Source: Clostridia bacterium
GTDB taxonomy: Bacteria; Bacillota; Clostridia; Oscillospirales; CAG-272
NCBI GenBank assembly: GCA_017502875.1
Contig: JAFVUF010000020.1
Span: 1-40,677, forward strand
Length of the DNA: 40,677 nt
Reading direction: 5' to 3'
Part shown: positions 22,863 to 37,628 of the stretch, in pieces
Layout of the letters: each line of letters begins with the position of its first letter
How positions within the stretch are numbered: the first letter of the stretch is position 1
Notes under the pieces: model-generated
The model's database searches: none
Seen by the model: the letters and a program-made list of their open reading frames with translations, nothing else
Told to the model about the DNA's origin: nothing
Translations under genes and position numbers: made by a program

Positions 22863-25388
22863 ATGAAGTTTTACACCAAACCAATAGAAAAATCACCGAG
22901 AATACCTAAGCTAGTAGCGGCGCTTTATGAAAAAATGCCTGAAATCGAGGCGGACAGAGGAGTACTTATAACCGAAGCGTATAAGCGCACTGAGGGTCAG
23001 CCTATCATCACGAGAAGAGCGTACGCCTTTAAGCATATTCTTGAAAACATTCCGATAGTCATAAGGGATAACGAGCTTATAGTCGGCTCAGCCACCAAGG
23101 CGCCCAGAGGCTGTCATATTTTCCCCGAGTATTCGTTTGAATGGCTTGAAAGTGAATTTGATACGTTAGCGACGAGAGCCGCCGACCCCTTCTACATATC
23201 AAATGAAACGAAGGAAACGCTCAGCAAGGTAAATAAATATTGGGCAGGCAAGACCACCAGAGAGCTTGCGGAGGCTTATATGTCCGACGAGGCGAAGGCT
23301 GCGTTTTCTCACGGTGTCTTTACTCCCGGAAACTACTACTATAACGGCATTGGGCACGTAACGGTTGACTACCCCAAAATAATTAGGGTAGGCTACAACG
23401 GAATTATTGAGGAAGCAAATGCTGCGATAGCTAAGCTTAGTCAGGGAGATGAGGATTACGCTAAGCGCCGTCATTTTCTTGACGCTGTTATAACCTGCGC
23501 AGAGGCGGCTATCAAGTACGCTAAGCGCTACTCCGAGCTTGCCTTTAACATGGCTAAGACGACTCAGGACGTAAAGCGCAGAAAAGAGCTTGAGGATATC
23601 GGCAGCGCCTGCCGTCAGGTGCCGCAATACGGAGCCACGAGCTTCAGGGAGGCGTGTCAGTCCTTCTGGTTTGTGCAGATGCTTCTCCAGCTTGAGTCAA
23701 ACGGACATTCAATATCGCCCGGAAGATTTGACCAGTATATGTATCCGTATTTCAAGGCGGACCTTGATGGCGGTAAGATAACCAGAGAGGAAGCGCAGGA
23801 GCTTATCGACTGTATTTGGGTTAAGCTCAATGACTTCAATAAGTGCAGAGACGCGGACAGCGCCGAGGGCTTTGCGGGATATAGCCTGTTCCAGAATCTT
23901 ATTGCGGGCGGACAGGATAAATACGGCATGGACGCAACAAACGACCTGTCGTTTATGTGCATAACGGCTACTGAGCACGTTTTTCTCCCTCAGCCTTCCT
24001 TCTCGGTCAGAGTCTGGAATGGCACTCCTCACGAATTTCTTATCCGCGCGGCAGAGCTTACGAGAACGGGCATAGGATTACCCGCATACTACAATGACGA
24101 GGTGATAATCCCGGCGCTTCAAAGCAGAGGGTTAACCCTTGAGGACGCAAGAGATTACAATATAATAGGTTGTGTTGAGCCGCAGAAGGCGGCAAAAACA
24201 GACGGCTGGCACGACGCGGCGTTCTTCAATATGCTTCGTCCGCTGGAAATGGTATTTTCAAGCGGAATTGATAAGGGCGTTCAGCTTGGTCCAAAAACGA
24301 AAAGGATTGAGGAAATGACGTCGTTTGACGAGTTTAAAGAGGCGTATGAGACTCAGATGAATTACTTCATTGAGCTTATGGTCAACGCCGACAACGCCAT
24401 AGACCTTGCCCACGCAGAGAGATGTCCGCTTCCTTTCCAGTCCTCTATGGTTGAGGATTGCATAGGCAGAGGTAAGAGCATGCAGGAGGGCGGCGCGGTC
24501 TATAACTTCACAGGACCGCAGGGCTTCGGAATAGCGAACGTTACTGACGGACTGTACGCCATAAGAAAGCTTGTTTTCGAGGATAAAAAGTATACGCTCG
24601 CTTTCATAAAGGAAGCGCTTGACAACAACTACGGCAAGGATATGGATGAGCGCAAGGCGGCAAAGCTTACCCAGCAGGTCGTTTCAGCTCTTGCGGAGTC
24701 CGGTAAGACAATAGACGCGGAAACTGTAAAGACGGTCTATTATACCGTAACGAAAAACAGGGCGAGCGACGAAAAGAAAAAGGCGTACGCGCAGCTCCTT
24801 GACGATATAAACGAGCTTTCCAAGTTCGGTAACGACGAGGACGATATTGACCGTTTCGCAAGAGAAATAGCGTATACATACACAAAACCTATTCAAAAAT
24901 ACAAAAATCCCAGAGGCGGAACGTACCAGGCGGGACTTTATCCCGTTTCGGCAAACGTGCCTCTCGGAGCGCAGACAGGCGCAACTCCCGACGGAAGACT
25001 TGCGTACACCCCGATAGCCGACGGCGTTTCACCCGCGGCTGGAAGAGACGTAAACGGTCCGACGGCGGCGGCAAACTCCGTTTCGTCGCTTGACCACTTC
25101 ATCGCTTCAAACGGTACGCTCTTCAATATGAAGTTCCATCCGTCAGCGCTTGAGGGCAGAAGCGGTCTCGAAAGCTTCGTGGCGCTTGTCAGAGGATACT
25201 TTGACAGGAAGGGAAGCCATATGCAGTTCAACGTCGTAAGCCGTGAAACGCTTCGCGACGCTCAGAAGAACCCCGATAAATACCGTTCTCTCGTGGTAAG
25301 AGTCGCAGGCTACTCGGCGCTCTTTACAACACTTTCAAAGGGACTGCAAGAGGATATAATCAACAGAACCGAGCAATCGGGATTTTAA
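22863..25388 (+). CDS. Glycyl-radical diol dehydratase (B12-independent, propanediol type)
   Basis: The 841-residue product is a full-length pyruvate-formate-lyase-family enzyme. The radical site is Gly816 in RVAGYSALF and the thiyl site is Cys437 in NIIGCVEPQ, followed by Glu439. His165 (GIGHV) and the pair His282/Ser283 (SNGHSISPGRFDQY), plus GWHDAAFFN, match glycerol/1,2-propanediol dehydratases rather than choline lyase or pyruvate formate-lyase. It dehydrates 1,2-propanediol to propanal inside the shell. Residue 1 enters the enzyme fold directly, so no N-terminal encapsulation helix is visible. The activase follows after 19 bases. Whether glycerol is also a substrate cannot be told. Confidence 0.95.
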   Translation: MKFYTKPIEKSPRIPKLVAALYEKMPEIEADRGVLITEAYKRTEGQPIITRRAYAFKHILENIPIVIRDNELIVGSATKAPRGCHIFPEYSFEWLESEFDTLATRAADPFYISNETKETLSKVNKYWAGKTTRELAEAYMSDEAKAAFSHGVFTPGNYYYNGIGHVTVDYPKIIRVGYNGIIEEANAAIAKLSQGDEDYAKRRHFLDAVITCAEAAIKYAKRYSELAFNMAKTTQDVKRRKELEDIGSACRQVPQYGATSFREACQSFWFVQMLLQLESNGHSISPGRFDQYMYPYFKADLDGGKITREEAQELIDCIWVKLNDFNKCRDADSAEGFAGYSLFQNLIAGGQDKYGMDATNDLSFMCITATEHVFLPQPSFSVRVWNGTPHEFLIRAAELTRTGIGLPAYYNDEVIIPALQSRGLTLEDARDYNIIGCVEPQKAAKTDGWHDAAFFNMLRPLEMVFSSGIDKGVQLGPKTKRIEEMTSFDEFKEAYETQMNYFIELMVNADNAIDLAHAERCPLPFQSSMVEDCIGRGKSMQEGGAVYNFTGPQGFGIANVTDGLYAIRKLVFEDKKYTLAFIKEALDNNYGKDMDERKAAKLTQQVVSALAESGKTIDAETVKTVYYTVTKNRASDEKKKAYAQLLDDINELSKFGNDEDDIDRFAREIAYTYTKPIQKYKNPRGGTYQAGLYPVSANVPLGAQTGATPDGRLAYTPIADGVSPAAGRDVNGPTAAANSVSSLDHFIASNGTLFNMKFHPSALEGRSGLESFVALVRGYFDRKGSHMQFNVVSRETLRDAQKNPDKYRSLVVRVAGYSALFTTLSKGLQEDIINRTEQSGF

Positions 25389-25407
25389 ATGAAAGTAGGG
25401 AAACGAA

Positions 25408-26199
25408 ATGGAAAAGGACCTGCTTTCAGTAAAGGGTAGAGTCTTTAATATCCAACGGTTTTCAATACACGACGGCCCCGGAGTCAGAACTATAGTGTTT
25501 TTAAAAGGTTGTCCGCTTAGGTGTAAATGGTGCTGTAACCCCGAATCACAGGAATGGGAAATCCAGAAGATGAGAGTAGGGGATAAGGTAAAGACAGTTG
25601 GTAAGGACGTAACTGTCGGAGAGGTAATAGAGCAGGTAGAAAAGGACAGAATCTATTACCGTCGCTCAGGTTTTGGCGGAATGACTCTTTCAGGCGGAGA
25701 ATGTACGTGGCAGCCGGATTTTTCCGAGGCGCTTCTCAAAACCGCTAAGGAAAACGGAATAACGACAGCTATCGAGACAACGGCTTATGCGGAAATCGAC
25801 GTGATACGAAGACTTCTTCCTTATATAGATACCGTGCTTATGGACATTAAGCATATGAATGAAAATAAGCATAGGGAATATACGACAAAAGACAATTCTC
25901 TGATTCTTGATAACGCGAAAATAATCGCAAGAGAAGCAAAAAAGCTCATAATAAGAACTCCCGTAGTACCGACCTTTAACGATACGGAAGAGGAGATAAG
26001 AGAGATAGCGGAATTTGCGGCGAGCATAGGGGTTACGGAAATGCACCTGCTTCCGTATCACAGAATAGGCTCAGATAAATACGCGGGACTCGGAAGAAGA
26101 TACGAGATGGCGCATATAAACGTGCCTGAAAAGGAAAAAATGCAAGCTCTCCTCGATGTAGTCAACGCAGTAGGCTTAAAGGGACAGATCGGGGGATAA
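25408..26199 (+). CDS. Glycyl-radical enzyme activase (radical SAM), short form
   Basis: The 263-residue product has the radical-SAM motif C35-x3-C39-x2-C42 in GCPLRCKWCCNPES and the family stretches IHDGPGVRTIVFLKG and GMTLSGGE. It forms the glycyl radical on the adjacent dehydratase using S-adenosylmethionine. Many activases of diol-dehydratase-type enzymes are about 300 residues and carry two extra ferredoxin-like Fe-S clusters after the SAM motif. Here the segment between Cys43 and GGMTLSGGE has no cysteine, so those clusters are absent, as in the pyruvate formate-lyase activase. It lies directly after the enzyme it serves. Confidence 0.95.
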   Translation: MEKDLLSVKGRVFNIQRFSIHDGPGVRTIVFLKGCPLRCKWCCNPESQEWEIQKMRVGDKVKTVGKDVTVGEVIEQVEKDRIYYRRSGFGGMTLSGGECTWQPDFSEALLKTAKENGITTAIETTAYAEIDVIRRLLPYIDTVLMDIKHMNENKHREYTTKDNSLILDNAKIIAREAKKLIIRTPVVPTFNDTEEEIREIAEFAASIGVTEMHLLPYHRIGSDKYAGLGRRYEMAHINVPEKEKMQALLDVVNAVGLKGQIGG

Positions 26200-26211: not shown

Positions 26212-26574
26212 TTGGAGCAGTACACGGAAAAACAAAGAATAATACAGGAATTGGTTCCGGGTAAGCAGATAACGCTGGCGCATATAATAGCCAACCCCGA
26301 CGAGATACTGTATAAAAAGCTCGGACTTGACCCACAGGTCGAGTATTCGAAATCGGCTATCGGTATTCTAACGGTAAGCCCCGCTGAGACAGCGATAATC
26401 ATGGGTGACATCTCGATAAAGGCTTCGGGAGCGCAGCTCGGATTTGTAGACAGGTTCAGCGGAACGGTGATACTTACCGGAACGTATTCCGAGGTCGAGG
26501 CATCACTTAAAGCGGTTACCGAATACATTGGCGGTACGCTTGGATTTACCGTATGCAAGATAACGAAAACCTAA
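26212..26574 (+). CDS. pduU: PduU-like (circularly permuted) BMC-H shell protein
   Basis: The 120-residue product uses a TTG start seven bases after AAGGAGG. Its N-terminus, RIIQELVPGKQITLAHIIAN, closely resembles S. enterica PduU, which has a permuted BMC fold and a beta-barrel plug over its pore. The core continues KSAIGILTVSPAETAIIMGD and FVDRFSGTVILTG. It should form hexamers in the shell facets. The stop overlaps the next start (TAATG), coupling it to the PduV-like GTPase; PduU and PduV are known partners. Confidence 0.93.
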   Translation: MEQYTEKQRIIQELVPGKQITLAHIIANPDEILYKKLGLDPQVEYSKSAIGILTVSPAETAIIMGDISIKASGAQLGFVDRFSGTVILTGTYSEVEASLKAVTEYIGGTLGFTVCKITKT

Positions 26575-26996
26575 TGAAGAAAACTCTGCTTGTCGGCAGA
26601 CACGGAGTAGGAAAGACAACGTTAAAGCAGGCGCTTCGCGGCGAGGAGATAAGATACGTCAAAACACAGTATATGCTCTATGAGGATTGGCTTATCGATT
26701 CTCCCGGAGAGTATGCCGAGGTACACGGACTCAATGCGGCGATAGCGATATACTCTTATGAGTCTGACGTCGTAGCCCTTCTGATAGCGGCAAACGACGA
26801 TTACTCACTGTTTCCTCCCAACTGTACGCAGATGATAAACAGAGATGTTATCGGTATAGTAACCAAAATAGATAAGGCTCCGCCCGAGAGGGCAGAGAGC
26901 TGGCTCCGTCTTTCAGGCTGTAAGAGAGTCTTTTTTGTGGACTCACATACGGGTAAGGGAGTCGATGAACTCAGATCATATCTGCGAAAGCGGTAA
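26574..26996 (+). CDS. pduV: PduV/EutP-like small GTPase-type protein
   Basis: The 140-residue product starts at the ATG overlapping the preceding stop (TAATG). A seven-codon longer frame would intrude into the shell gene and lacks a site. The P-loop reads LLVGRHGVGKTT, followed by LIDSPGEYAE (G3-like) and the guanine-specificity-like IVTKIDKA. PduV is reported to bind PduU and influence compartment movement; EutP has acetate-kinase-like activity in some species. The role here is inferred from the PduU neighbour. Confidence 0.9.
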   Translation: MKKTLLVGRHGVGKTTLKQALRGEEIRYVKTQYMLYEDWLIDSPGEYAEVHGLNAAIAIYSYESDVVALLIAANDDYSLFPPNCTQMINRDVIGIVTKIDKAPPERAESWLRLSGCKRVFFVDSHTGKGVDELRSYLRKR

Positions 26997-27040: not shown

Positions 27041-27838
27041 ATGGTCAACGAGTACGAAATAAAAAAACAGATATGCGAGATAGGTAAGCGTATCTACAAC
27101 AAGGGAATGGTCGCGTCAAACGACGGTAATATCTCCGTCAAGATAAGCGATAACGAGTTTCTCTGTACTCCTACGGGCGTATCCAAGGGCTTTATGACCC
27201 CTGAGTATATCTGTAAGGTAGATAAGGACGGAAAGGTTATCCAGGCAAACCCCGGATTCAAGCCCTCCTCCGAAATCAAGATGCACATGAGAGTTTATAA
27301 GGAGCGTCCCGACGTTCAGTCCGTCGTTCATGCTCACCCTCTCTACGCAACCTCATTCGCTATCGCCGGAATTCCGCTTACAGAGCCTATCATGCCCGAG
27401 GCGGTTATAGCTCTCGGATGCGTTCCGATAGCGGAGTACGGCACACCCTCCACCGAGGAGATTCCGGATGCGGTCTCAAAGTATCTCCAGCACTATGACG
27501 CGGTTCTTCTTGCTAACCACGGCGCGCTTTCCTTCTCTGATTCGCTCCTCAGCGCTTATCATAAGATGGAGTCGCTTGAGTTCTATGCTCAGCTTCTTTA
27601 TCAGTCGAAGGTTCTCGGTGGTCCTAAGCAGCTCACCGACGCACAGGTACAGAGACTTTACGAGATTCGCCGTCAGTTCGGTCTTAAGGGTAAGCACCCC
27701 GCCGACATCTGTCCCAACGCAAAGGCGGGCAAGCCCAGCTGTCATGGCTGCGGCGGAAGCTGCGGAGGCAACGCGGGAGCTGATGCTGATACAGTCGCTC
27801 TCGTTACCAAGCTTGTTCTTGAGCAGCTCGGTAAGTAA
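27041..27838 (+). CDS. fucA: Class II aldolase (L-fuculose-phosphate type) with C-terminal encapsulation helix
   Basis: The 265-residue product starts at the ATG after AAAAGGAGACATAA. Zinc ligands H97 and H99 (VVHAHPLYATS) and H160 (LLANHGALSF), with acid E78 (SSEIKMH), match the fuculose/rhamnulose phosphate aldolases. These split the sugar phosphate into DHAP and lactaldehyde. After the domain, residues 224-243 form a Cys/Gly-rich linker with four cysteines (C224, C234, C237, C241), followed by an amphipathic helix, DTVALVTKLVLEQLGK, of the encapsulation type. An encapsulated aldolase defines the fucose/rhamnose glycyl-radical compartments. Rhamnulose-phosphate activity cannot be excluded. 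Confidence 0.92.
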   Translation: MVNEYEIKKQICEIGKRIYNKGMVASNDGNISVKISDNEFLCTPTGVSKGFMTPEYICKVDKDGKVIQANPGFKPSSEIKMHMRVYKERPDVQSVVHAHPLYATSFAIAGIPLTEPIMPEAVIALGCVPIAEYGTPSTEEIPDAVSKYLQHYDAVLLANHGALSFSDSLLSAYHKMESLEFYAQLLYQSKVLGGPKQLTDAQVQRLYEIRRQFGLKGKHPADICPNAKAGKPSCHGCGGSCGGNAGADADTVALVTKLVLEQLGK

Positions 27839-27845: not shown

Positions 27846-28319
27846 ATGACTGAAAACGAGATTAAAGAGATAGTTAAAAAAACTCTTGCCTCGTTTAAAT
27901 TCGATAAAAGCGAGATGACCCTTGCTCTTGCCGAAAAAATCTGCGAAGCTGTTATCGGTTACGCAAGGAAGGCGGGAGTCAATGCGGTGGTCTGCGTTTC
28001 CGATAGCGCGGGAAACCCAAGGCTCGTCAAGAGCATGGACGACGCGTACATAGCAAGCTACGACGTGGCTGTAAATAAGGCGTTCACGGTCGTGGCGCTC
28101 AAAATGTCCACCTCGGATTTAAAGCCGCTTGCCCAGCCGGGTAAGGAGCTTTACGGAATACAGTTCACCAACGGCGGCAGAATAGTGATATTCGGCGGCG
28201 GCGAACCGCTTAAAGTAGACGGTAAGGTAATTGGCGGACTCGGAGTAAGCGGTGGAAGCGAGGCGCAGGATACGCTGCTCGCAAAGCAAGGCAAAGAGTT
28301 TTTTGATAGCTTAAAGTAA
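27846..28319 (+). CDS. GlcG/PduO-C-like protein with N-terminal encapsulation helix
   Basis: The 157-residue product starts with an encapsulation-type helix, MTENEIKEIVKKTLASF. A GlcG/HbpS domain (Pfam PF03928) of about 130 residues follows: ALAEKICEAVIGYARKAG, VCVSDSAGNPRLVKSMDD, KPLAQPGKELYGIQFTNGG and the C-terminal GGLGVSGGSEAQDTLLA. The same domain is the C-terminal half of PduO and can bind heme or cobalamin-like ligands. The cobalamin adenosyltransferase half is absent, in keeping with a B12-independent pathway. Its role in glycyl-radical compartments is not known. Confidence 0.88.
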   Translation: MTENEIKEIVKKTLASFKFDKSEMTLALAEKICEAVIGYARKAGVNAVVCVSDSAGNPRLVKSMDDAYIASYDVAVNKAFTVVALKMSTSDLKPLAQPGKELYGIQFTNGGRIVIFGGGEPLKVDGKVIGGLGVSGGSEAQDTLLAKQGKEFFDSLK

Positions 28320-28353: not shown

Positions 28354-29544
28354 ATGAATTCTTCTGACATTGAAAAGATCGTCAGACAGGTGCTTGAAAG
28401 CATGGGAAGCCCCAAGTCCGCGCCCAAGGCGGCGGCAGGCGTTCCGGCTACGAGCAGAGTCGCGATGCTGACTCAGAAGGAGCGCTTCGACATTCAGGAA
28501 TATCCCATTCCCGAGCTTGGTGATGACGATATACTCGTAAAGGTCGAGGGCTGCGGAGTCTGCGGAACCGACGCGCACGAATTCAAGCGGGACCCATTCT
28601 CGCTTATCCCCGTAGTTCTCGGACACGAGGGAACGGGTGAGATAGTTAAGATGGGTAAGAACGTAACGAAGGACAGCGCGGGTAAGCCTCTTAACGTAGG
28701 CGATAAGGTAGTTACCTGTATGATCTTCAAGGATAATCCCGATATCACGATGTATGACCTCAATAAGCAGAACGTTGGAGGAGCGGACGTTTACGGACTT
28801 CTTCCCGATGACGACAAGCACTTAAACGGCTGGTTTGCCGATTATATTCTTGTTCGCGGCGGCTCTACGGTATTCAACGTAAGCGATCTTGACCTCGATA
28901 GTAGAATACTTATCGAGCCCTGCGCGGTGCTTATTCACGCGGTAGAAAGAGCAAAGACCACGGGAATACTTCGCTTCAACAGCAAAGTGGCGGTTCAGGG
29001 CTGCGGTCCTATCGGTCTTATCTGCATTGCGGTTCTGAGAACGATGGGTATAGAAAACATCGTGGCTATCGACGGAGAAGCGAAGCGTCTTGAATTCGCA
29101 AAGCTTATGGGAGCGACTGAGACGGTAAACTTCAAGGAGCACAAGGGCATTGATGCGCTTACAGAAGCTGTAAAGAACGCCTTCGGCGGCTATCTTGCCG
29201 ATTTTGCGTTCCAGTGCACAGGCTCGCCTGTTGCTCACGCCAACATTTATAAGTTTATAAGAAACGGCGGTGGACTTTGCGAGCTTGGATTCTTCATAAA
29301 CGGCGGAGACGCTACCATAAACCCCCACTTCGATATCTGCTCCAAGGAGATAACGACTGTCGGCTCTTGGGTATATACTTTAAGAGATTACGCCACAACG
29401 TTTGATTTCTTAAAGAGAGCAAAGGGAATAGGTATTCCGCTTGAAAAGCTCATTACTCATAAGTATCCGCTTGATAAGATAAACGAGGCGCTTCAAACCA
29501 ATTTGAAGATGGAAGGCCTTAAAATAGCTATCGTAAACGAATAA
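28354..29544 (+). CDS. Zn-type (MDR) alcohol dehydrogenase with encapsulation helix
   Basis: The 396-residue product begins with an encapsulation-type helix (SSDIEKIVRQVLESMGS) and an Ala/Pro-rich linker. Next comes a GroES-like domain with catalytic-zinc residues C70 (GCGVCGTDAHEF) and H91/E92 (LGHEGTGEIV), then a Rossmann domain with VQGCGPIGLICIAVLRTMG. The lobe after GDKVV, which usually carries four structural-zinc cysteines, has only one. The enzyme probably reduces propanal to propanol, recycling NADH, or lactaldehyde to propanediol; only one such enzyme is encoded here. It replaces the iron-type PduQ of classical Pdu operons. Confidence 0.92.
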   Translation: MNSSDIEKIVRQVLESMGSPKSAPKAAAGVPATSRVAMLTQKERFDIQEYPIPELGDDDILVKVEGCGVCGTDAHEFKRDPFSLIPVVLGHEGTGEIVKMGKNVTKDSAGKPLNVGDKVVTCMIFKDNPDITMYDLNKQNVGGADVYGLLPDDDKHLNGWFADYILVRGGSTVFNVSDLDLDSRILIEPCAVLIHAVERAKTTGILRFNSKVAVQGCGPIGLICIAVLRTMGIENIVAIDGEAKRLEFAKLMGATETVNFKEHKGIDALTEAVKNAFGGYLADFAFQCTGSPVAHANIYKFIRNGGGLCELGFFINGGDATINPHFDICSKEITTVGSWVYTLRDYATTFDFLKRAKGIGIPLEKLITHKYPLDKINEALQTNLKMEGLKIAIVNE

Positions 29545-29563: not shown

Positions 29564-29878
29564 ATGGGAAAAGCGACAGGATTTATAGAGGTCTACGGAC
29601 TTGCGTGCGCCTTTGCGGCTCTTGACGCGGGCTGTAAGGCGGCGGACGTAACCGTCGAGACCTTTGATAAAAATAAGCCGGCAAACGCCGATAAAATGCC
29701 TGTGCCTCTTATAGTTCTGATAAAATTCAGAGGAACGGTAGAAAACGTTAAGGCGGCGATTGAGGCGGCGGAAAAAACGGCAAACGGACTTACGGGAGTC
29801 GTTTCAAAGCATATAATAGCAAACACAGAGCAGTCCACTGAAAAAATGCTCAAATTAAACGCTTTTGATAAAAAATAA
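29564..29878 (+). CDS. Divergent BMC-H shell protein with enlarged pore loop
   Basis: The 104-residue product is recognisable as a BMC domain by TGFIEVYGLACAFAALDAGC at the start and VENVKAAIEAAEKTANGL in the second half. Between strands, where hexamers normally show a short KIGSG-like pore loop, it has a longer Asn/Pro/Lys-rich stretch (FDKNKPANADKMPVPLIVL). The pore loop faces the hexamer centre, so this insert should alter or cover the pore. It is the first of five BMC-H genes in a row. No Fe-S cysteine motif like that reported for GrpU is present. Confidence 0.85.
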   Translation: MGKATGFIEVYGLACAFAALDAGCKAADVTVETFDKNKPANADKMPVPLIVLIKFRGTVENVKAAIEAAEKTANGLTGVVSKHIIANTEQSTEKMLKLNAFDKK

Positions 29879-30524: not shown

Positions 30525-30803
30525 ATGGCACTCGAAGCACTTGGAATGGTAGAAACCAGAGGACTCGTCGCTGCAATAGAGGCGGCAGACGCAATGGTAA
30601 AGGCGGCAAACGTAGAGCTTATCGGCACCGAGAAGATCGGTAGCGGACTCGTAAGCGTTATGGTAAGAGGCGACGTCGGCGCGGTAAAGGCGGCGGCTGA
30701 GGCAGGTCAGGCGGCAGCGTCCAGACTTGGCGAAATCGTAGCGGTACACGTAATTCCCCGTCCTCATGCGGATGTTGAGAAGATTCTTCCCACCCTTGAC
30801 TAA
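30525..30803 (+). CDS. PduA/PduJ-like BMC-H shell protein (copy 2)
   Basis: The 92-residue product starts after CGGAGGTAACTCAAA. It has the same canonical BMC-H motifs as the copy at 29900 ([20 protein letters not shown] and [20 protein letters not shown]). It differs from the following copy at only two positions (Ala/Thr near residue 59 and Thr/Ser near the end), and the genes are nearly identical at DNA level, which indicates a recent tandem duplication. Confidence 0.95.
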
Positions 30804-30838
30804 TTAAAAAACAAAAACACATACGGAGGTAAACAGAA

Positions 30839-31117
30839 ATGGCACTCGAAGCACTTGGAATGGTAGAAACCAGAGGACTTGTCGCTGCAATAGAGGCGGC
30901 AGACGCAATGGTAAAGGCGGCAAACGTAGAGCTTATCGGTACCGAGAAGATCGGTAGCGGACTCGTAAGCGTTATGGTAAGAGGCGACGTCGGAGCTGTA
31001 AAGGCTGCGACCGAGGCAGGTCAGGCGGCAGCGTCCAGACTTGGCGAGATTGTAGCGGTACACGTAATTCCCCGTCCCCATGCTGACGTTGAGAAGATTC
31101 TCCCCAGCCTTGACTAA
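30839..31117 (+). CDS. PduA/PduJ-like BMC-H shell protein (copy 3)
   Basis: The 92-residue product starts after CGGAGGTAAACAGAA. It is a near-identical tandem copy of 30525-30803. Having three nearly equivalent hexamer genes probably raises dosage, because hexamers greatly outnumber other shell parts. A strong hairpin at 31136-31167 follows the stop and may protect or end part of the transcript before the pentamer gene. Confidence 0.95.
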
Positions 31118-31135
31118 TTAATGCAATCGGCTTAA

Positions 31136-31167
31136 GCGAGGGAACGTTTTTTAACGTTATCCCTCGC
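31136..31167 (+). promoter_or_regulatory. Strong intra-operon hairpin after the shell hexamer genes
   Basis: GCGAGGGAACGTT (31136-31148) pairs with AACGTT plus CCCTCGC (31153-31167) around a TTTT loop and a two-base AT bulge. No T-run follows, so it looks like an mRNA-stabilising or processing element rather than a terminator. Confidence 0.6.
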
Positions 31168-31193
31168 GGAGTCGGGCGCAAAGCAAAGAATAA

Positions 31194-31256
31194 GCTTTTG
31201 TTTTACGCAATACACTCGAAATTTTTTGTTGCGAATGTGTCGCGAAAAACAAAAGC
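31194..31256 (+). promoter_or_regulatory. Long imperfect hairpin before the pentamer gene
   Basis: GCTTTTGTTTTACGC (31194-31208) pairs with a late GCGAAAAACAAAAGC (31242-31256), with additional ACAC/GTGT pairing inside. It ends 22 bases before the pentamer start codon and nine bases before its ribosome site, so it could modulate translation or mark an mRNA processing point. Confidence 0.5.
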
Positions 31257-31278
31257 ACTAAATATAGGAGAAAAAGCT

Positions 31279-31560
31279 ATGTTAATAGGAAAAGTAGTTG
31301 GAAGCGTTGTTTCTACGGATAAGGATGCTAAGCTTATCGGACATAAGTTTATGATAGTTGAGACGATAGCTGATACGTGGTGCGCCAAGCGCATAGTTGC
31401 GGTAGACGACGTTGGGGCGGGAATAGGCGAAAAGGTGCTTGTTTCGCTCGGAAGCGCGGCAAGATTCACCTGCGACGGAGAAAACGACGCAAGCCCTATC
31501 GATGCGGCGATAGTAGGAATAATAGATAACGACTCCGTTATTCCGGATTTTGATAAATAA
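31279..31560 (+). CDS. pduN: PduN/EutN/CcmL-like BMC-P vertex protein
   Basis: The 93-residue product starts at the ATG eight bases after TAGGAG. An in-frame upstream open stretch covers the hairpin region and is not coding. It has the BMC-P fold: MLIGKVVGSVVSTDKDAKLI, then IVAVDDVGAGIGEKVLVSLG and PIDAAIVGIID. Such proteins form pentamers that close the shell vertices and are needed in only a few dozen copies. The unusual structured gap before it may keep its dose below that of the hexamers. Confidence 0.95.
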   Translation: MLIGKVVGSVVSTDKDAKLIGHKFMIVETIADTWCAKRIVAVDDVGAGIGEKVLVSLGSAARFTCDGENDASPIDAAIVGIIDNDSVIPDFDK

Positions 31561-31583: not shown

Positions 31584-32909
31584 ATGGAACTTAGTGAGCT
31601 TAAAGCTCTGCTTCGTGAAAGCGGTGTAGTCGGCGCGGGAGGCGCGGGCTTTCCTACCTACGCGAAGCTGACAGATAAAGCGGATACAGTTATTCTTAAC
31701 TGCGCTGAATGCGAGCCGCTTCTTAAGCTTCACCGACAGGCGCTGGAGCTTCACGTAAGCGAGATACTGCATGCGTTTAACGAAATACTTACGGCAACGG
31801 GCGCAAATCGCGGTATAGTAGCGGTAAAGAAGCATTATAAGGCGGCGGTGGCGGCGCTTGAAAGTGAAATATCGGATTATGATAAGATATCTGTTTGTAA
31901 GCTTGAGTCCGTATATCCTGCGGGCGATGAGGTAATACTCGTTAAAAGGGTTACGGGCAGAAGCATTAATCCCGGTGAGCTTCCCGGCTCGGTAGGAGTA
32001 ACGGTTTGCAACGTTGAGACGGTGTATAACGTTTATAAAGCGCTGAACGGCATGCCCGTAACGCATAAATACGTTACAGTTGCGGGCGAGGTGAAAAATC
32101 CCATGACCGTATACGCTCCGATTGGTGTAAAAATAGCTGACCTTGTAAGGCTGGCGGGGGGTGAAACGGTAGAAAAACCCGAATACCTGAGTGGCGGACC
32201 TATGATGGGTAAGCTGGTCAGTCCTGCCGACTCGGTAACAAAGACCACAAATGCTATAATCGTGCTTTCGGAAACGCATAGCGTTGTAATGAATAAAAAG
32301 AGAAACGCAAAGATAAATCTCCGCAGAACGATGTCCGTTTGCTGCCAGTGTCATACCTGTACCGACCTGTGCTCAAGACACGTCGCGGGATATCCCGTTG
32401 AGCCGCATATGGTAATGAGAGTGCTTTCAAACGGCGGCAGAGGTGATTCAAGCTCTATAATGGGAGCGATGTTCTGCTCAGGGTGCGGTCTATGCGAAAG
32501 CTATTCCTGCCCACAGGGACTTTCCCCAAGGGCTCTTATCGACGAGATAAAGGCTCAGGCAAGAATGAACGGTGTTATGCCGCCGAGAGGAATCAAGGCG
32601 CTTGAGCATACAGAGCACGAGGACTACCGTAAAATATCGGTTGAAAGACTTACGTTGAGGCTCGGACTCAAAAAGTATGACGTTTCCGCGCCCATAACCG
32701 ATATTCCGGAAATCAAAAGCGTTAAAATCAAGCTTTCTCAGCATATCGGCGTATCTTCAAAGCCTTGCGTTCACGTAGGCGATACCGTAAAGAAGGGCGA
32801 CGTTGTCGCTGTGGCGGCGGAAAAGGGGCTTGGAGTTAATATTCACGCCTCAATAAACGGAACGGTAACCGATATTACCCAGAAATACATAAAAATAGAA
32901 AATATTTGA
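31584..32909 (+). CDS. pduS: PduS-like flavin/Fe-S electron-transfer protein (RnfC family)
   Basis: The 441-residue product starts with the Gly-rich VVGAGGAGFPTYAKL of the RnfC/Complex1_51K NADH/FMN region, followed by an SLBB domain. Two 4Fe-4S motifs follow: C253-x2-C256-x2-C259-x3-C263 and C298-x2-C301-x2-C304-x4-C309-P. A short Rnf barrel-like domain lies at the C-terminus (HIGVSSKPCVHVGDTVKKGD). PduS reduces cobalamin in B12-dependent operons. No B12 enzyme is encoded here, so it more likely moves electrons between NADH and another acceptor, such as the PduT-like shell protein encoded next or the activase. Confidence 0.92.
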   Translation: MELSELKALLRESGVVGAGGAGFPTYAKLTDKADTVILNCAECEPLLKLHRQALELHVSEILHAFNEILTATGANRGIVAVKKHYKAAVAALESEISDYDKISVCKLESVYPAGDEVILVKRVTGRSINPGELPGSVGVTVCNVETVYNVYKALNGMPVTHKYVTVAGEVKNPMTVYAPIGVKIADLVRLAGGETVEKPEYLSGGPMMGKLVSPADSVTKTTNAIIVLSETHSVVMNKKRNAKINLRRTMSVCCQCHTCTDLCSRHVAGYPVEPHMVMRVLSNGGRGDSSSIMGAMFCSGCGLCESYSCPQGLSPRALIDEIKAQARMNGVMPPRGIKALEHTEHEDYRKISVERLTLRLGLKKYDVSAPITDIPEIKSVKIKLSQHIGVSSKPCVHVGDTVKKGDVVAVAAEKGLGVNIHASINGTVTDITQKYIKIENI

Positions 32910-32938: not shown

Positions 32939-33484
32939 ATGAAAAAAGCTCTTGGAATGATTGAATTCAAAACGGTGGCTTCGGGTATAACCGCCACTGA
33001 CGTTATGCTTAAAACCGCGGAGGTAGAGGTTGTAACGGCAGGGCCTGTTTGTCCGGGCAAGTACATAGCCACAATAGCTGGCGAGATAAGCGCGGTTAAG
33101 TCGGCAATCGACGCCGCGGAAAGATATAACAGCGCAATGCTTATCGATAAGTTCCTGCTTGGCGCGCCTCACGAAACGGTTCAGCCCGCAATCTGCGGAG
33201 CGCTTGAGGTTAAAAACAAGGGTGCGGTAGGCATTATCGAAACTTATACCGCCGCATCAGCTGTAGTAGCTGCGGATACTGCGGCGAAAACAGCGCTTGT
33301 TGAGCTTATCGAGGTCAGACTCGCTAAAGGAATGTGCGGTAAATCCTACGTTATCCTTACGGGAAGCGTATCGGCGGTTACCGCGGCGATAGATAAGGCA
33401 AAGGCTGGAGTTGAGGACGGACTTCTTCTCGACACATCGGTTATCGCAGGTCCTGACGAAAGGCTTTGGGAGAGCATACTCTGA
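32939..33484 (+). CDS. pduT: PduT-like tandem-BMC shell protein (BMC-T) with pore Cys
   Basis: The 181-residue product has two BMC domains: KALGMIEFKTVASGITATDV, and the second beginning GAVGIIETYTAASAVVAADT. Cys38 lies in TAGPVCPGKYIATI, at the exact residue number of the PduT cysteine that binds a central 4Fe-4S cluster in the trimer (PduT reads KTICPGKF). The trimer could pass electrons through the shell. It lies 29 bases after the PduS-like gene, matching the reported PduS-PduT partnership. Confidence 0.93.
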   Translation: MKKALGMIEFKTVASGITATDVMLKTAEVEVVTAGPVCPGKYIATIAGEISAVKSAIDAAERYNSAMLIDKFLLGAPHETVQPAICGALEVKNKGAVGIIETYTAASAVVAADTAAKTALVELIEVRLAKGMCGKSYVILTGSVSAVTAAIDKAKAGVEDGLLLDTSVIAGPDERLWESIL

Positions 33485-33506: not shown

Positions 33507-34289
33507 ATGCTTGCTATTGAAAGAAAACGCGAGATACTTTCAAAACTTAACACAAACGGTAAGGTTATCGTTACTGAGCTTGCGAAGGAGTTTGGCGTTA
33601 CAGAGGAAACGGTCAGACGGGACCTTGAAAAGCTGGATAATGAGGGTCTTGCTTCAAAAATATACGGCGGCGCGGTGTCAAAAAAAGGACCTGTGCTTGA
33701 ACTACCGTATAACGTGCGAGTCAACGTAAACGTAGATGAGAAGGAGATAATCTCCGAGCTTGTAGCTGAGCACGTGCGGGACGGAGATAAGCTTATGCTT
33801 GACTCAAGCTCAACGGATATCTATATTGTAAAAAAGCTTAAGGCAAAGAAAAATCTGACTGTTATCACCAATTCCGTCAAGATTTTGCTTGAGCTGTCCG
33901 ACAAGCCGGACTTCACCGTTCTTTGTACAGGCGGAAGCTTGAAGGAGGGCTCGCTTGCTCTTAGCGGCTCGTCCGCTGAAAAGATGATTAGCTCATATCA
34001 CGTTGACGCGGCAATTGTGTCATGTAAGGGAATAGATATGACACTGGGTGTTACGGACTCAAACGAGGCGGACGGACAGATAAAGCAGGCAATGTTTGCT
34101 TCGGCTGACAAGAAAATTCTTGCTTTGGACGGCGGAAAATTTGATAATAAGTCCTTTGTTAAGTTATGTGATGTAAGTGTTTTGGATATGATAATTACCG
34201 ATAAGGCTCCGAGCGAGGCGTGGCAGAGCTTCTGCCGCGAAAACGGAGTCGAGCTCATCTATAAAAATATACAAGCCGAAGGAAATTAA
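33507..34289 (+). CDS. DeoR-family transcriptional regulator
   Basis: The 260-residue product starts after GGGGGTAGC. The N-terminal helix-turn-helix reads VTELAKEFGVTEETVRRDLE, followed by the wing KIYGGAV. The DeoR sensor domain contains DGDKLMLDSSSTDIYIVKKL and VITNSVKILLEL, a fold that binds sugar phosphates. Regulators of this family control fucose and other sugar genes. It lies inside the operon it probably controls; a direct repeat at 22731-22760 is a candidate operator. Confidence 0.93.
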   Translation: MLAIERKREILSKLNTNGKVIVTELAKEFGVTEETVRRDLEKLDNEGLASKIYGGAVSKKGPVLELPYNVRVNVNVDEKEIISELVAEHVRDGDKLMLDSSSTDIYIVKKLKAKKNLTVITNSVKILLELSDKPDFTVLCTGGSLKEGSLALSGSSAEKMISSYHVDAAIVSCKGIDMTLGVTDSNEADGQIKQAMFASADKKILALDGGKFDNKSFVKLCDVSVLDMIITDKAPSEAWQSFCRENGVELIYKNIQAEGN

Positions 34290-34294: not shown

Positions 34295-35494
34295 ATGAAA
34301 ATACTCGTATTGAACGCAGGAAGCTCCTCTCTTAAATATCAGCTTTTTAACATGGAGACAGGAAACGTACTCGCAAAGGGTACCTGTGAAAGAATAGGCG
34401 CGGGCGGAGCTATTACCCACAAGGTTCCGGGTAGAGATAACTTTTATGAGGAGCCGGATTTCAAAAATCACGGAGCGGCGTTAAAGACCGTACTTGAGCT
34501 TCTTGTGTCAAAGGAGCACCGAGTGATAGAGGACGTTAATGAGATAGACGCTGTTGGACACAGAGTTGCTCACGGAGGAGCAAAGTGCCGTCAGTCCACT
34601 AAGGTTACCGAGAGTGTTATCAAATATCTTGAGACCATCGTGCCGATAAATCCTCTCCACGGCCCGCCTGCGATAGCGGGCATAAAGGCATGTACCGAGC
34701 TTATGCCGAGTGTGCCTCAGGTAGCGGTATTCGATACCTCCTTTTACTCAGATATGGAGGACTTCAGATACGTCTATCCGATACCCTATGATTTTTACGA
34801 AAATGATAAAATTCGCCGTTACGGGTTTCACGGAACGTCTCACAGATACGTTAGCGCCGAGGTCGCAAGGGTTATCGGCAGACCGATAGAGGAGCTTAAA
34901 ATAGTTACCTGCCACTTAGGAAACGGCTCGTCCATAACCGCTGTTGACGGCGGAAAGGCGATAGATACGTCAATGGGCTTTACCCCTCAGGAGGGAATTG
35001 CGATGGGTACTCGCTCGGGTACAGTAGACCCGACTGTTGTTACCTATCTCATGAAGACAAAGGGATATACGGCTCAGGAGGTTGAGGATATTTTAAACAA
35101 AAAAAGCGGACTTCTTGGCGTTTCGGGAATATCAAACGATTGCCGTAACATTGCGGAAGCTGCCGCTGAGGGTAATTATCGCGCTCAGCTTGCTATGAAG
35201 ATACTCATAAACGGCATTAAGAAGTATATCGGTTCTTATGTCGCTGAGATGAACGGCATCGACGCTCTCGTCTTTACAGCGGGAATCGGTGAAAACCAGA
35301 TGGATATAAGACGTGAGGTTTGCAAAAATATGTCATATCTCGGAATTGAGATTGACGAAGACAAAAACGCTAACTTCGAGCGAGGTGTCCCATTCAATAT
35401 CACTAAGAGTGGAGCGAGAGTCCAGACTTGGATAATCCCCACCGATGAGGAATATATGATAGCTAACGACACCAAGCGTCTCGCATTTGAATAA
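34295..35494 (+). CDS. ackA: Acetate/propionate kinase
   Basis: The 399-residue product has the ASKHA acetate-kinase signatures LVLNAGSSSLKYQLF at the start and HLGNGSSITAVDGGKAIDTS in the middle. VAVFDTSFYSDM, RYGFHGTSHRYVS and FTAGIGENQMDIRREVCKN also match. It makes ATP from propionyl- or acetyl-phosphate and ADP. It completes the PduP-PduL branch encoded directly after it. It has no encapsulation helix, so it probably acts outside the shell. Its length equals the usual about 400 residues. It starts five bases after the regulator's stop. Confidence 0.97.
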   Translation: MKILVLNAGSSSLKYQLFNMETGNVLAKGTCERIGAGGAITHKVPGRDNFYEEPDFKNHGAALKTVLELLVSKEHRVIEDVNEIDAVGHRVAHGGAKCRQSTKVTESVIKYLETIVPINPLHGPPAIAGIKACTELMPSVPQVAVFDTSFYSDMEDFRYVYPIPYDFYENDKIRRYGFHGTSHRYVSAEVARVIGRPIEELKIVTCHLGNGSSITAVDGGKAIDTSMGFTPQEGIAMGTRSGTVDPTVVTYLMKTKGYTAQEVEDILNKKSGLLGVSGISNDCRNIAEAAAEGNYRAQLAMKILINGIKKYIGSYVAEMNGIDALVFTAGIGENQMDIRREVCKNMSYLGIEIDEDKNANFERGVPFNITKSGARVQTWIIPTDEEYMIANDTKRLAFE

Positions 35495-35515
35495 AAACGG
35501 AAGGATTTAAGCAAC

Positions 35516-36958
35516 ATGGCAAGCATAACAGAAGCCGAAATTAGAGAGATAGTAAAGAAGATAGTCAGCAGTTCGGTAGGCGCGGATTTATTGGGATACA
35601 CCAGCACTCAGTATAACGGCAGAAAGCTTATCGGCGTTTATTCGGATATGAACGAGGCTATTGACGCCGCGGAAAGAGGCTATAAGGCAGTCCGAGCGAT
35701 GACTGTTGAGCAGAGAGAAAAGATTATTGACGAGATACGCCGTCTAACCCGTGAGGAAGCGCCAATAATGGCTAAAATGGGTGTAGAGGAAACAGGAATG
35801 GGCAAGATCGAGCATAAAAGACTTAAGCATATTCTCGTTGCCGATAAGACTCCCGGAACAGAGGATATCGTTTCCGAGGCAAGAACAGGTGATAACGGTC
35901 TGACGCTCACTGAAATGGCTCCATTCGGGGTTGTGGGTGCGATAACTCCCAGTACCAACCCATCTGAGACAGTAATCTGTAACTCCATAGGAATGATAGC
36001 CGCGGGCAACGGAGTGGTGTTCAATCCTCACCCAAACGCTATATGTGTCTCAAACTATGCGGTAGACCTTGTAAACCGCGCGTCAGCTATTGCGGGCGGT
36101 CCTGAGGTTCTCGTTTGCTCAATGGATAAGCCCACTCTTGACAGCGCGGCAATTATGCAATCGCACCCGAAAATAAGACTTCTCGTATGTACGGGCGGTC
36201 CCGGAGTTGTTAAGGCTGTTCTTTCGTCAGGAAAGAAGGCGATAGGAGCAGGCGCGGGCAATCCCCCCGTAATAGTAGACGATACCGCCGACATAAAGAA
36301 GGCGGGTAAGGATATAATCGACGGCTGCACCTTTGATAATAATCTTCCCTGTATAGCGGAAAAAGAGGTATTCGCATTTGATAGCATAGCCGATGAGCTT
36401 ATAGCTGAGATGAAGAAAAACGGTGCTTACCTTATCACAAAGGAGCAGGCGGATAAGCTTGTACCGATAGTTTTGAACGAGAAAACGGGTAAGAACGGAA
36501 AAACCGTTAAGGTGGTAAGCCGCGACTGTGTTGGAAGAGATGCCGACGTTATACTCGCCAAGATAGGCGTAAAGGTCGGTAAGGACGTGCGCTGCATAAT
36601 CTGTGAGACCGATTTTATGCACGATTTCGTTCAGCACGAGCTTATGATGCCCATTCTTCCGATAGTCAGAGTACATAATATCGAGGAGGCTATCGACCTT
36701 GCGGTTAAGGCCGAGCACGGAAACAGACACACCGCGCATATGCACAGCAAGAACATTGACCGCCTCTCCGCGTTTGCCAAGGCGGTTGAGACAACGATTT
36801 TTGTAAAGAACGCGCCTTCGTACGCGGGAATAGGCTTTGGCGGAGAAGGTCATACAACCTTCACCATAGCAGGTCCTACGGGTGAGGGCATAACATCTGC
36901 AAGGTCATTCACAAGAAAACGCAGATGCGTTATGGCTGACAATTTCAGAATAATCTAA
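35516..36958 (+). CDS. pduP: CoA-acylating aldehyde dehydrogenase (PduP-type) with encapsulation helix
   Basis: The 480-residue product starts with an encapsulation-type helix, ITEAEIREIVKKIVSSSVG, then an ALDH domain. The catalytic residue is Cys279 (FDNNLPCIAEKE), and the CoA/NAD regions include TPSTNPSETVICNSIGMI and CTGGPGVVKAVLSSGKKAIG. It oxidises propanal with CoA and NAD to propionyl-CoA inside the shell, consuming the toxic aldehyde made by the glycyl-radical enzyme. It lies between ackA and pduL, and its length and motifs are normal for the family. Confidence 0.96.
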   Translation: MASITEAEIREIVKKIVSSSVGADLLGYTSTQYNGRKLIGVYSDMNEAIDAAERGYKAVRAMTVEQREKIIDEIRRLTREEAPIMAKMGVEETGMGKIEHKRLKHILVADKTPGTEDIVSEARTGDNGLTLTEMAPFGVVGAITPSTNPSETVICNSIGMIAAGNGVVFNPHPNAICVSNYAVDLVNRASAIAGGPEVLVCSMDKPTLDSAAIMQSHPKIRLLVCTGGPGVVKAVLSSGKKAIGAGAGNPPVIVDDTADIKKAGKDIIDGCTFDNNLPCIAEKEVFAFDSIADELIAEMKKNGAYLITKEQADKLVPIVLNEKTGKNGKTVKVVSRDCVGRDADVILAKIGVKVGKDVRCIICETDFMHDFVQHELMMPILPIVRVHNIEEAIDLAVKAEHGNRHTAHMHSKNIDRLSAFAKAVETTIFVKNAPSYAGIGFGGEGHTTFTIAGPTGEGITSARSFTRKRRCVMADNFRII

Positions 36959-36977
36959 TTTTACGGAGTTTAATGTA

Positions 36978-37628
36978 ATGAAATATACCGAAAATGAAAT
37001 CAAGGCGCTTGTCGATAAGGTTATTGAGACCGTAAAGGGCGGAAACGCTCATGAGGGGGACGTTCCCGTAGGAGTGTCCAACAGACATATACATTTAACA
37101 AGAGAGCACGTTGAGATACTTTTTGGTAAGGGCTATCAGCTCACTAAAATCAAAGATTTGTCTCAGCCCGGGCAGTATGCCTGCAAGGAGCAGCTCACTA
37201 TAATCGGTCCTTCCATGAGAAGCATTGAGGGCGTAAGAGTGTTAGGACCCGAAAGAAAACGCTCTCAGGTGGAAATATCAAGAACCGATAGCTTTGTGTT
37301 AAAGGTAAAGCCGCCTGTTCGTGAGTCTGGCGACCTTGATGGCTCAGCTCCCATAACCGTAGTCGGACCTAAGGGCATCGTAACTCTTTCTGAGGGCTGC
37401 ATCATCGCTAACAGACACATACATATGAGCGAGGAAGAGGGTAAGGCGTACGGCGTTACCGACGGCGAATACTGTGATGTTGAGCTTTACGGTGAAAGAA
37501 GAAGCCTGTTCTACGACGTACAGATACGTGTTCACAAGGATTTCCGCCTTGAAATGCACATAGATACTGATGACGCGAATGCCGCGGGAGTTGGAAACGG
37601 CACAAAGGTAAGGCTCATAAAAAGATGA
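36978..37628 (+). CDS. pduL: PduL-type phosphate propanoyltransferase with encapsulation helix
   Basis: The 216-residue product begins with an encapsulation-type helix, YTENEIKALVDKVIETVKGG. Two PduL domains follow with the zinc-binding His residues H37/H39 (VSNRHIHLT) and H147/H149 (ANRHIHMSEEEG). H194 (LEMHID) and the conserved TIIGPSMRSIEGVRVLGP are also present. It converts propionyl-CoA and phosphate to propionyl-phosphate and frees CoA inside the compartment. It is the last gene of the operon; a terminator follows at 37672-37704. Confidence 0.96.
   Translation: MKYTENEIKALVDKVIETVKGGNAHEGDVPVGVSNRHIHLTREHVEILFGKGYQLTKIKDLSQPGQYACKEQLTIIGPSMRSIEGVRVLGPERKRSQVEISRTDSFVLKVKPPVRESGDLDGSAPITVVGPKGIVTLSEGCIIANRHIHMSEEEGKAYGVTDGEYCDVELYGERRSLFYDVQIRVHKDFRLEMHIDTDDANAAGVGNGTKVRLIKR

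Follow-up and report, generated by a model that had tools for sequence, protein, structure and literature searches.

The 40,677-nucleotide stretch of Clostridia bacterium contig JAFVUF010000020.1 analyzed here (the window) carries a complete and ordinary GRM5 microcompartment operon, which very probably serves the lower half of the pathway by which L-rhamnose and L-fucose are fermented. Nineteen open, co-directional genes occupy positions 22863 to 37628 of the plus strand, exactly the span originally predicted. Family scans yielded names for all 19, from the dehydratase through PduL, and agreed with the predicted aldolase, dehydratase and activase, alcohol dehydrogenase (ADH), aldehyde dehydrogenase, PduL, and acetate kinase. 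The predicted full shell set was likewise found (six BMC-H proteins including PduU, the BMC-T protein PduT, and one PduN) together with a glycyl radical enzyme, and all eight PF00936 matches in the whole genome lie inside this locus. The genes are as follows, named by family scan with other evidence in parentheses:

22863..25388, plus strand: glycyl radical 1,2-propanediol dehydratase (PF02901, PF01228; tree)
25408..26199, plus strand: radical-SAM activating enzyme without a ferredoxin-like insert (263 aa, 5 Cys)
26212..26574, plus strand: PduU/EutS-like BMC-H shell protein, TTG start
26553..26996, plus strand: PduV/EutP-type GTPase
27041..27838, plus strand: class II fuculose/rhamnulose-phosphate aldolase (PF00596)
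27846..28319, plus strand: GlcG/HbpS-like (DUF336) protein with predicted N-terminal encapsulation peptide (PF03928; N-terminal hydrophobic moment)
28354..29544, plus strand: zinc-type dehydrogenase, probable lactaldehyde reductase (PF00107, PF08240)
29564..29878, plus strand: divergent BMC-H shell protein
29900..30178, plus strand: BMC-H shell protein, EutM-like
30201..30494, plus strand: BMC-H shell protein
30525..30803, plus strand: BMC-H shell protein, its DNA 93% identical to the following copy
30839..31117, plus strand: BMC-H shell protein
31279..31560, plus strand: PduN/EutN pentameric vertex protein (PF03319)
31584..32909, plus strand: PduS-like flavo-iron-sulfur protein (Complex1_51K, RnfC_N, Fer4_17, SLBB)
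32939..33484, plus strand: PduT-like BMC-T shell protein, Cys38 in CPGKY
33507..34289, plus strand: DeoR-family regulator
34295..35494, plus strand: acetate/propionate kinase (AckA)
35516..36958, plus strand: CoA-acylating propionaldehyde dehydrogenase, PduP (tree)
36978..37628, plus strand: PduL phosphate propanoyltransferase with predicted N-terminal encapsulation peptide (N-terminal hydrophobic moment)

Every published GRM5 gene trait that could be tested is present. PduS and PduT, reported in 57 of 57 GRM5 loci (PMC6325248), both occur and GrpU is absent; the GrpU pore motif CPQ was not found in the six BMC-H proteins or PduT, the last of which has CPGKY, the motif given for a pore Fe-S cluster (PMC6325248). 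Also present are the DeoR regulator and DUF336 protein, described as GRM5 ancillary genes (PMC4207490), the PF00596 aldolase, the PF00107 plus PF08240 dehydrogenase, and an insert-less activase. The original prediction considered the co-occurrence of a Zn-type ADH, PduS and PduT homologs, a GlcG-like protein, and a DeoR regulator noteworthy; the combination is not unusual, because it is the gene set already published for GRM5 (PMC4207490, PMC6325248, PMC3557285).

The dehydratase, with Cys437 in GCVEP and Gly816 in RVAGYSAL, bears out the predicted GRM5 class. Its identity to the GRM5 diol dehydratase of Roseburia inulinivorans (PDB 5i2a) is 62.6%, compared with 52 to 53% to three enzymes that we labeled GRM3/GRM4-type in this analysis and about 34% to CutC and HypD. 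Its grouping with another glycyl-radical subclass, named beforehand as an outcome that would speak against GRM5, was rejected: in a quick tree it falls among GRM5 rows, on a branch apart from the GRM3/GRM4-type rows (85% SH-aLRT). The enzyme also contains one feature of note for targeting:

24651..24836, plus strand (limits approximate): intra-domain insertion of the dehydratase, a predicted encapsulation peptide (gapless alignment to 5i2a)

Such an insertion is the predicted encapsulation peptide of GRM3 to GRM5 enzymes (PMC5311937, PMC6325248); when the enzyme is matched to glycerol dehydratase 1r8w, the best-matching segment stops at residue 596.

It is scarcely credible that the locus encodes a chiefly GRM3-like compartment for 1,2-propanediol in which the aldolase is incidental. 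The lower pathway is identical and the dehydratases are related at 52 to 53% identity; the E. coli Grp locus (GRM3-type) shares with the window the lower pathway, a GlcG/HbpS protein, and a propionate kinase. However, the Grp stretch shown lacks an aldolase and a zinc ADH, and its dehydratase is 53% identical to that of the window. An aldolase is present in 76 of 80 related stretches, with its own tail and peptide, and neither a propanediol facilitator nor PduQ occurs in the operon. A ferredoxin-like activase insert of ∼70 residues is reported to be absent from GRM5 only (PMC6325248): the E. coli Grp activase has 305 aa and 13 Cys, whereas that of the window has 263 aa and 5 Cys, with no PF00037 listed at an E value of 1e-5. 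Thus, none of the GRM3 features (no aldolase, ferredoxin-insert activase, GRM3-grouping dehydratase) is found here.

In the pathway that we favor, isomerases and a kinase encoded elsewhere would supply rhamnulose- or fuculose-1-phosphate, which the tailed aldolase would cleave inside the shell to dihydroxyacetone phosphate (DHAP) and L-lactaldehyde. DHAP would exit to glycolysis; the zinc dehydrogenase would reduce lactaldehyde with NADH to 1,2-propanediol, which the activated glycyl radical enzyme would dehydrate to propionaldehyde. PduP would then form propionyl-CoA, regaining NADH, PduL would form propionyl-phosphate, and the kinase would yield propionate and ATP; electron transfer across the shell is probably the task of PduS and PduT. 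In Clostridium (Lachnoclostridium) phytofermentans, fucose and rhamnose induce the corresponding locus, with propanol, propionate, and polyhedra (PMC3557285), and the operon described here may be induced likewise. The prediction that every step to propionate is encoded holds for the genes, all of which are present; beyond that it depends on the single ADH, since papers name that enzyme lactaldehyde reductase or propanol dehydrogenase. We consider it unlikely, though a serious contender, that the zinc dehydrogenase is a propanol dehydrogenase (the PduQ role), with lactaldehyde reduced elsewhere and both propanol and propionate produced: Cphy_1179 was so assigned by Petit 2013, who found propanol in culture (PMC3557285), and the operon has no PduQ-type gene. 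Ferlez 2019 instead assigned lactaldehyde reduction to the zinc-type enzyme (PMC6325248), a role that would close the NADH loop within the shell. One ADH could be both enzymes only by dual use.

As for the substrate, the NCBIfam matches of the aldolase all score below their curated cutoffs, the top one being 3-oxo-tetronate-4-phosphate decarboxylase, and class II aldolases are promiscuous (PMC4207490); both points would suit a different ketose-1-phosphate, such as one derived from pentoses or 5-deoxypentoses. We find that very improbable: the pairing of an aldolase with a propanediol dehydratase is most readily understood if the aldolase releases lactaldehyde, and the genome encodes RhaA and FucI. 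Consistent with the prediction that no sugar kinase or isomerase is linked, none was seen among the window's frames, but other contigs carry RhaA beside RhaB and FucI beside a FucU-like gene. A missing sugar pathway was thus rejected, except for a separate fuculokinase, which was not found (FGGY matches exceeded the Pfam cutoff for two proteins, XylB and RhaB). No rhamnose- or fucose-like permease is among the three PF02653 permeases of the genome, which by reading are branched-chain amino-acid and galactose-type. Among seven genomes of the genus, including the source, the dehydratase occurs in all seven, and the trait is therefore probably old in the genus; FucI occurs in seven and RhaA in six. 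The locus extends a known propionate-forming organelle to a further, probably gut-living, Clostridia-like lineage.

Comparison of gene order with published GRM5 loci, a check suggested with the original prediction, showed a shared gene set but a different place for PduP-PduL. The window and Cphy_1174-1187 have in common the dehydratase, activase, PduU, aldolase, PduP, zinc ADH, BMC-H set, PduL, PduN, PduS, PduT, and DeoR (PMC3557285). Unlike in Cphy_1174-1187, PduP and PduL are the 3′-most genes of the operon here, following DeoR and AckA, and relative to the 14-gene Cphy list given there the window has PduV, GlcG-like, AckA, and two more BMC-H genes (PMC3557285). This order resembles that of 36 of 80 named Clostridia relatives (architecture B, e.g., L018 and L023), in which PduP follows DeoR; AckA occurs in 15 of these 36. 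The order tracks one PduP clade: architecture-B and window PduP group together with 100/98 support (35 of 36 were complete enough to place), and architecture C likewise forms one clade. Window PduP is 60.9% identical to that of C. phytofermentans (4c3s), which is among the GRM5 enzymes with which it groups; relative to architecture A, PduP is 54.8 to 58.7% and ADH 82.6 to 85.9% identical. Replacement by a foreign PduP was rejected because the tree keeps GRM5 PduP in one group (100/99, plus one Acetoanaerobium row). In the dehydratase tree, 5i2a lies amid architecture-A (Lachnospiraceae-type) rows whereas the window lies amid architecture-B rows from gut Clostridia, and architecture B needs three changes. 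A first AU test hugely rejected B as one clade, with near-identical rows of unknown architecture forced outside the group; repeated without those rows, the test did not reject one B clade (p 0.437) and so does not support module exchange between architectures. Incomplete rows (PduP of L060 and L090, dehydratase of L067) and the dehydratase of L020, which has an internal stop codon, were dropped.

Predicted N-terminal encapsulation peptides were evaluated by hydrophobic moment, which is outstanding for ADH (rank 1 of 382), PduL (1 of 202), and GlcG (2 of 143) but unremarkable for PduP (36 of 466) and the aldolase C terminus (46 of 251). A sequence pattern for the aldolase peptide matched 0 of 75. 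The aldolase tail contains the following:

27710..27763, plus strand: Cys-His-Cys motif of Cys224, Cys234, His235, Cys237, and Cys241 (pattern count)
27785..27835, plus strand: predicted C-terminal encapsulation peptide (tail conserved in relatives)

The Cys motif, N-terminal to the peptide, had no description in a brief literature search. Our first pattern, C-x7-12-CHGC, matched 2 of 14 tails of architecture A, 32 of 36 of B (window included), 0 of 11 of C, and 10 of 16 of undetermined architecture. The looser C-x4-10-C[HF]-x1-2-C matches all 77 tails (76 named loci plus the window), the same set to which it was fitted after the tails had been viewed. In an order-level set of 30 aldolases, which contains the window itself and non-BMC aldolases, it matches 11, the window being one. 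The misses retain some Cys (L163, L165-167), have other Cys-rich tails (L169-172) or two Cys (L174-175), or are tailless (L176-183); the tail of L173 is peptide-like and contains a single Cys, and this aldolase has no neighboring BMC genes.

A second less expected part of the operon lies between the BMC-H block and PduN:

31118..31278, plus strand: structured intercistronic stretch (folding energy)

It comprises two hairpins, one GC-rich (31136-31167) and the other long and interrupted (31194-31256), and its folding energy of −57.8 kcal/mol (z −6.48) was matched by 0 of 200 shuffles; among the remaining internal gaps, those for which a fold was computed give −3.0 or weaker, yet are much shorter. 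For PduN, the ribosome-binding site ahead of the ATG at 31279 makes that codon the most likely start, in preference to the longer frame that opens with TTG at 31198. An unbroken stem of at least 10 pairs occurs in 41 of 52 BMC-H-to-PduN gaps, a count in which the window's own interrupted stem is a miss. No Rfam family reached threshold at this gap, and a brief literature search returned no description of the folded RNA. We inspected 11 gaps and built an RNA model (R1) from eight relatives; three gaps that lack the three segments (those of the window, L036, and L041) were kept out of the alignment, and R1 gives no match in the window. It matched at least 1 of 39 genomes, and misses are likely because only up to 116 of 150 to 635 candidates per genome were scored. 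R1 also matches the reverse strand at the same places, since the element is nearly palindromic; it may instead be a palindrome at the DNA level or a mobile repeat of old origin.

In selective RNA processing and stabilization, a stable stem-loop marks the 3′ end of selected operon genes, and the gap hairpin agrees in place and stability. Possibly, though at somewhat less than even chances, the gap RNA sets shell stoichiometry (a 3′ stem-loop stabilizing the major shell transcript, with two mutually exclusive helices switching in close relatives) and the tail of the encapsulated aldolase is a metal (Zn or Fe-S) site, GRM5 being the one GRM class with an activase that has no Fe-S insert of its own; for the alternative helix, one measure (further pair types) gave no improvement over shuffled sequences (467 of 500). 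If so, the hairpin downstream of the shell genes would go some way toward explaining why a single operon yields many hexamers and few pentamers, a ratio of practical interest to shell builders, and the tail motif would be a cargo feature open to testing. These two elements may prove weightier than the rest of the operon.

The operon has one good promoter and one terminator, and intergenic gaps do not exceed 44 bases, with a single exception:

22778..22806, plus strand: sigma-70-type promoter, TTGACA-17-TATACT, its −10 preceded by TG (11 of 12 consensus positions matched)
37671..37705, plus strand: terminator-like hairpin, probably bidirectional (15-pair stem reported on the minus strand)

By eye, the plus strand of the latter shows the same palindrome plus a short T run. 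Upstream regions had a best sigma-70 site of at least 10 of 12 matches in 51 of 66 cases (window included), versus ∼7% of mononucleotide shuffles; the best site lies >100 bases upstream in several of the relatives.

The 19 open frames that run in a single direction from 22863 to 37628 were named by profile scans, and they bear out the coordinates and gene list of the original prediction. Systems of this kind are already known; the operon places one in another genome. As described in the available text of PMC6325248, PMC4207490, and PMC3557285, GRM5 loci encode an aldolase (PF00596) and a zinc-type lactaldehyde reductase (PF00107 and PF08240), have PduS and PduT in all cases, lack GrpU, carry an activase without a ferredoxin insert, and further include a DeoR regulator and a DUF336 protein. 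Every one of these traits applies to the window locus; thus, the combination of a zinc-type dehydrogenase (ADH), PduS and PduT, a GlcG-like protein, and a DeoR regulator in one operon, to which the original prediction drew attention, is present but is the standard GRM5 list rather than a distinctive one. At 263 residues with 5 Cys, the window activase is shorter than that of the E. coli Grp system (305 residues, 13 Cys); for the 67 activases of our set with coverage above 95% (window included), the match spans 256 to 265 residues with 4 to 9 Cys.

Both trees agree with the GRM5 assignment, which was part of the original prediction. The window dehydratase is 62.6% identical to the Roseburia inulinivorans GRM5 enzyme 5i2a, versus 53.2% to E. 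coli GrpM, 52.3% to a Rahnella enzyme and 53.1% to an IncHI2 plasmid enzyme (labeled GRM3 and GRM4-like, respectively, by this analysis itself), and ∼34% to HypD and CutC. Membership in another glycyl-radical subclass would have counted against the assignment; instead, the window enzyme groups with 5i2a and other GRM5 rows, and a quick tree gives 85% support to the branch separating these from GRM3/GRM4-type rows. The window aldehyde dehydrogenase (PduP), 60.9% identical to the Clostridium phytofermentans GRM5 enzyme 4c3s, lies inside the GRM5 group with support of 100/99. The parts of the locus that merit bench work are the structured gap after the shell block and the Cys-containing aldolase tail.

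We compared gene order with other GRM5 loci in the best 80 of 559 confirmed relatives from one genome scan with the dehydrogenase, most of whose titles name gut Clostridia. PduP follows DeoR, as in the window, in 36 of these 80 (architecture B), precedes ADH in 15 (architecture A), and lies between PduT and DeoR in 13 (architecture C); the stretches fetched for the remaining 16 yielded no PduP. In the C. phytofermentans gene list, PduP comes before ADH, unlike in the window. In the PduP tree, the 36 B rows (window included) form one clade, as do the 13 C rows; the 14 A rows form one once 4c3s, nested inside A, is counted in. From these counts and clades, the window order is a common GRM5 variant. 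Many of the 80 stretches end at contig ends; 76 hold the aldolase, 69 GlcG, and 16 AckA. A further GRM5-like order opens with AckA-aldolase-PduP-ADH and has the dehydratase close to its end; among family members, it appears in 5 of 13 fetched stretches, and a sixth, incomplete stretch fits. In the stretches with this order (L184 to L187, L189, and L190), the aldolase and ADH are only ∼50% identical to those of the window, with PduP at 74 to 76% and the EutM-like BMC-H at 84 to 93%. Another relative, L020, has a stop codon within its dehydratase frame (3444 to 5966).

In the proposed pathway, the aldolase would cut rhamnulose- or fuculose-1-phosphate to DHAP and lactaldehyde, the zinc dehydrogenase would reduce lactaldehyde to 1,2-propanediol, from which the glycyl radical enzyme would form propionaldehyde, and PduP, PduL, and the kinase would give propionate and ATP. 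If the lone dehydrogenase is a lactaldehyde reductase, the NADH it uses would equal that formed by PduP, so that no propanol branch would be needed in the lumen. The window PduT keeps the CPGKY cysteine motif, the motif stated for the pore cluster in the available text of PMC6325248.

Isomerase and kinase genes were predicted to be absent from the window, and indeed we saw none there; they are on other contigs of the same genome. An L-rhamnose isomerase gene adjoins a rhamnulokinase gene on contig 16, and an L-fucose isomerase gene is followed by a fucose-mutarotase-like gene on contig 6, with a divergent AraC-type regulator (L015, a stretch of this genome, 9726 to 11979). Both isomerases score above their NCBIfam cutoffs; the rhamnulokinase (518.1 versus 527.95) and mutarotase (140.2 versus 141) fall just below theirs. 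No fuculokinase was found in the genome, whose two FGGY matches above the Pfam cutoff are XylB and RhaB; RhaB may phosphorylate both sugars. Judged from gene neighbors, none of the genome's three PF02653 permeases resembles a rhamnose/fucose system. Among seven genomes of the genus, including this one, the dehydratase and FucI occur in 7 and RhaA in 6; in the family sample, 62 of 246 genomes have a dehydratase match (E value of 1e-200 or better).

The genome comprises 1,645,489 bases in 28 contigs, of which the window is contig 7, and all eight PF00936 matches found in the genome lie within the operon locus. The features discussed below are as follows.

Predicted signals and motifs of the operon
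∼57 bases 5' of the first gene: promoter-like site, 11/12 matches, extended −10
27710 to 27763: Cys-His-Cys motif in the aldolase tail, located between the core and the C-terminal encapsulation peptide
31118 to 31278: highly structured intercistronic gap, 161 bases, from the last BMC-H gene to PduN
43 bases 3' of the last gene: terminator-like palindrome, 15 pairs

The best promoter site reaches at least 10/12 in 51 of 66 upstream regions (window included), compared with only ∼7% of shuffles that preserve mononucleotide composition; several of the relatives have it >100 bases upstream. EutM-like BMC-H copies number two to four in loci that hold ADH as well as PduN. In the window, a BMC-H pair at 30525 to 31117 is 93% identical in DNA and is probably a recent tandem duplication.

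Within the operon, only the gap separating PduN from the last BMC-H gene exceeds 44 bases. Its predicted fold has a free energy of −57.8 kcal/mol (z = −6.48; 0 of 200 shuffles as low); other folded internal gaps reach −3.0 or weaker, though they are also much shorter. In gaps of 45 to 300 bases, we counted unbroken stems of at least 10 pairs. Such stems occur in 41 of the 52 gaps that separate the last BMC-H gene from PduN; the corresponding counts are 5 of 98 for one BMC-H gene to another, 8 of 58 for PduV to the aldolase, 1 of 21 for the divergent BMC-H to the next one, and 4 of 9 for BMC-H to PduL. Few gaps are of any other type. Without the upper length limit, the counts are 42 of 53 for BMC-H to PduN and 5 of 11 for BMC-H to PduL (architecture A). 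The window gap itself is a miss by this measure: its longest unbroken stem has 9 pairs, and its main hairpin has 8 plus 5 pairs with a bulge. Most stems are not ordinary terminators, since only 3 of 47 are followed by a T-rich tail. Because stem sequences vary much from locus to locus, the comparison suggests that selection acts on structure and place.

Three conserved segments are seen in the gaps of eight relatives, all of architecture B and belonging to the smallest starred clade that holds the window in the dehydratase tree; the middle segment can pair with either of the other two. Of the resulting helices, the long one comprises 26 pairs, with 94.1% of cells paired (≤55.2% when slid) and two-sided changes at 13 pairs; the alternative helix has 13 pairs, with 100% of cells paired (≤62.4% when slid) and two-sided changes at 3. 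Three points favor both helices: the alignment is small, its eight rows were picked for showing the segments, and both structures came from one row. Across the genomes of 39 relatives, a covariance model matched once, in a congener, where the site falls between a BMC-H gene and PduN; the window retains only a hairpin like the long helix and does not match the model. In Clostridia, such stems set subunit ratios in a cellulosome operon, according to the available text of PMC4423207. Among the literature listed for such stems in microcompartment operons, the paper examined mentions only predicted terminators; the word microcompartment is missing from the main texts examined on selective RNA processing and stabilization. 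We propose that the candidate stem keeps BMC-H transcript high relative to PduN.

The pattern C-x4-10-C[HF]-x1-2-C occurs in all 77 aldolase tails (76 relatives' loci plus the window), each of which has 3 to 6 Cys. We loosened the pattern once a stricter version had missed many A and C loci, and 77 of 77 therefore describes the set rather than testing it independently. In N-terminal tag regions of the same loci, at least two Cys occur in 1 of 81 ADH, 0 of 59 GlcG, 0 of 61 PduP, and 0 of 47 PduL. In an order-level aldolase set that includes the window, 11 of 30 have the motif, all within the 15 closest; eight aldolases end near residue 221 to 230, with neither tail nor motif, and the five tailless-aldolase neighborhoods fetched (L191 to L195) have no BMC genes. 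The aldolase of L188, another fetched stretch without BMC genes, has a peptide-like tail with one Cys. The motif is not mentioned in the literature searched, including the available text of PMC6325248 and PMC5311937, but Zarzycki 2015, the main bioinformatic paper on GRMs, may already describe it. One might guess that the motif binds a metal.

Upstream of the operon, on the minus strand (20691 to 22463), lies a gene of an antiporter family whose product has an N-terminal stretch rich in Cys. The best match in NCBIfam, a Tet(35)-type family, scores 190.9 bits, far below its cutoff of 750, and we therefore make no resistance call. A small, Cys-rich DUF1540 protein gene (37722 to 37919, minus strand) faces the operon end, and the only Rfam match above threshold in the window is a tRNA gene at 4704 to 4785 (minus strand).
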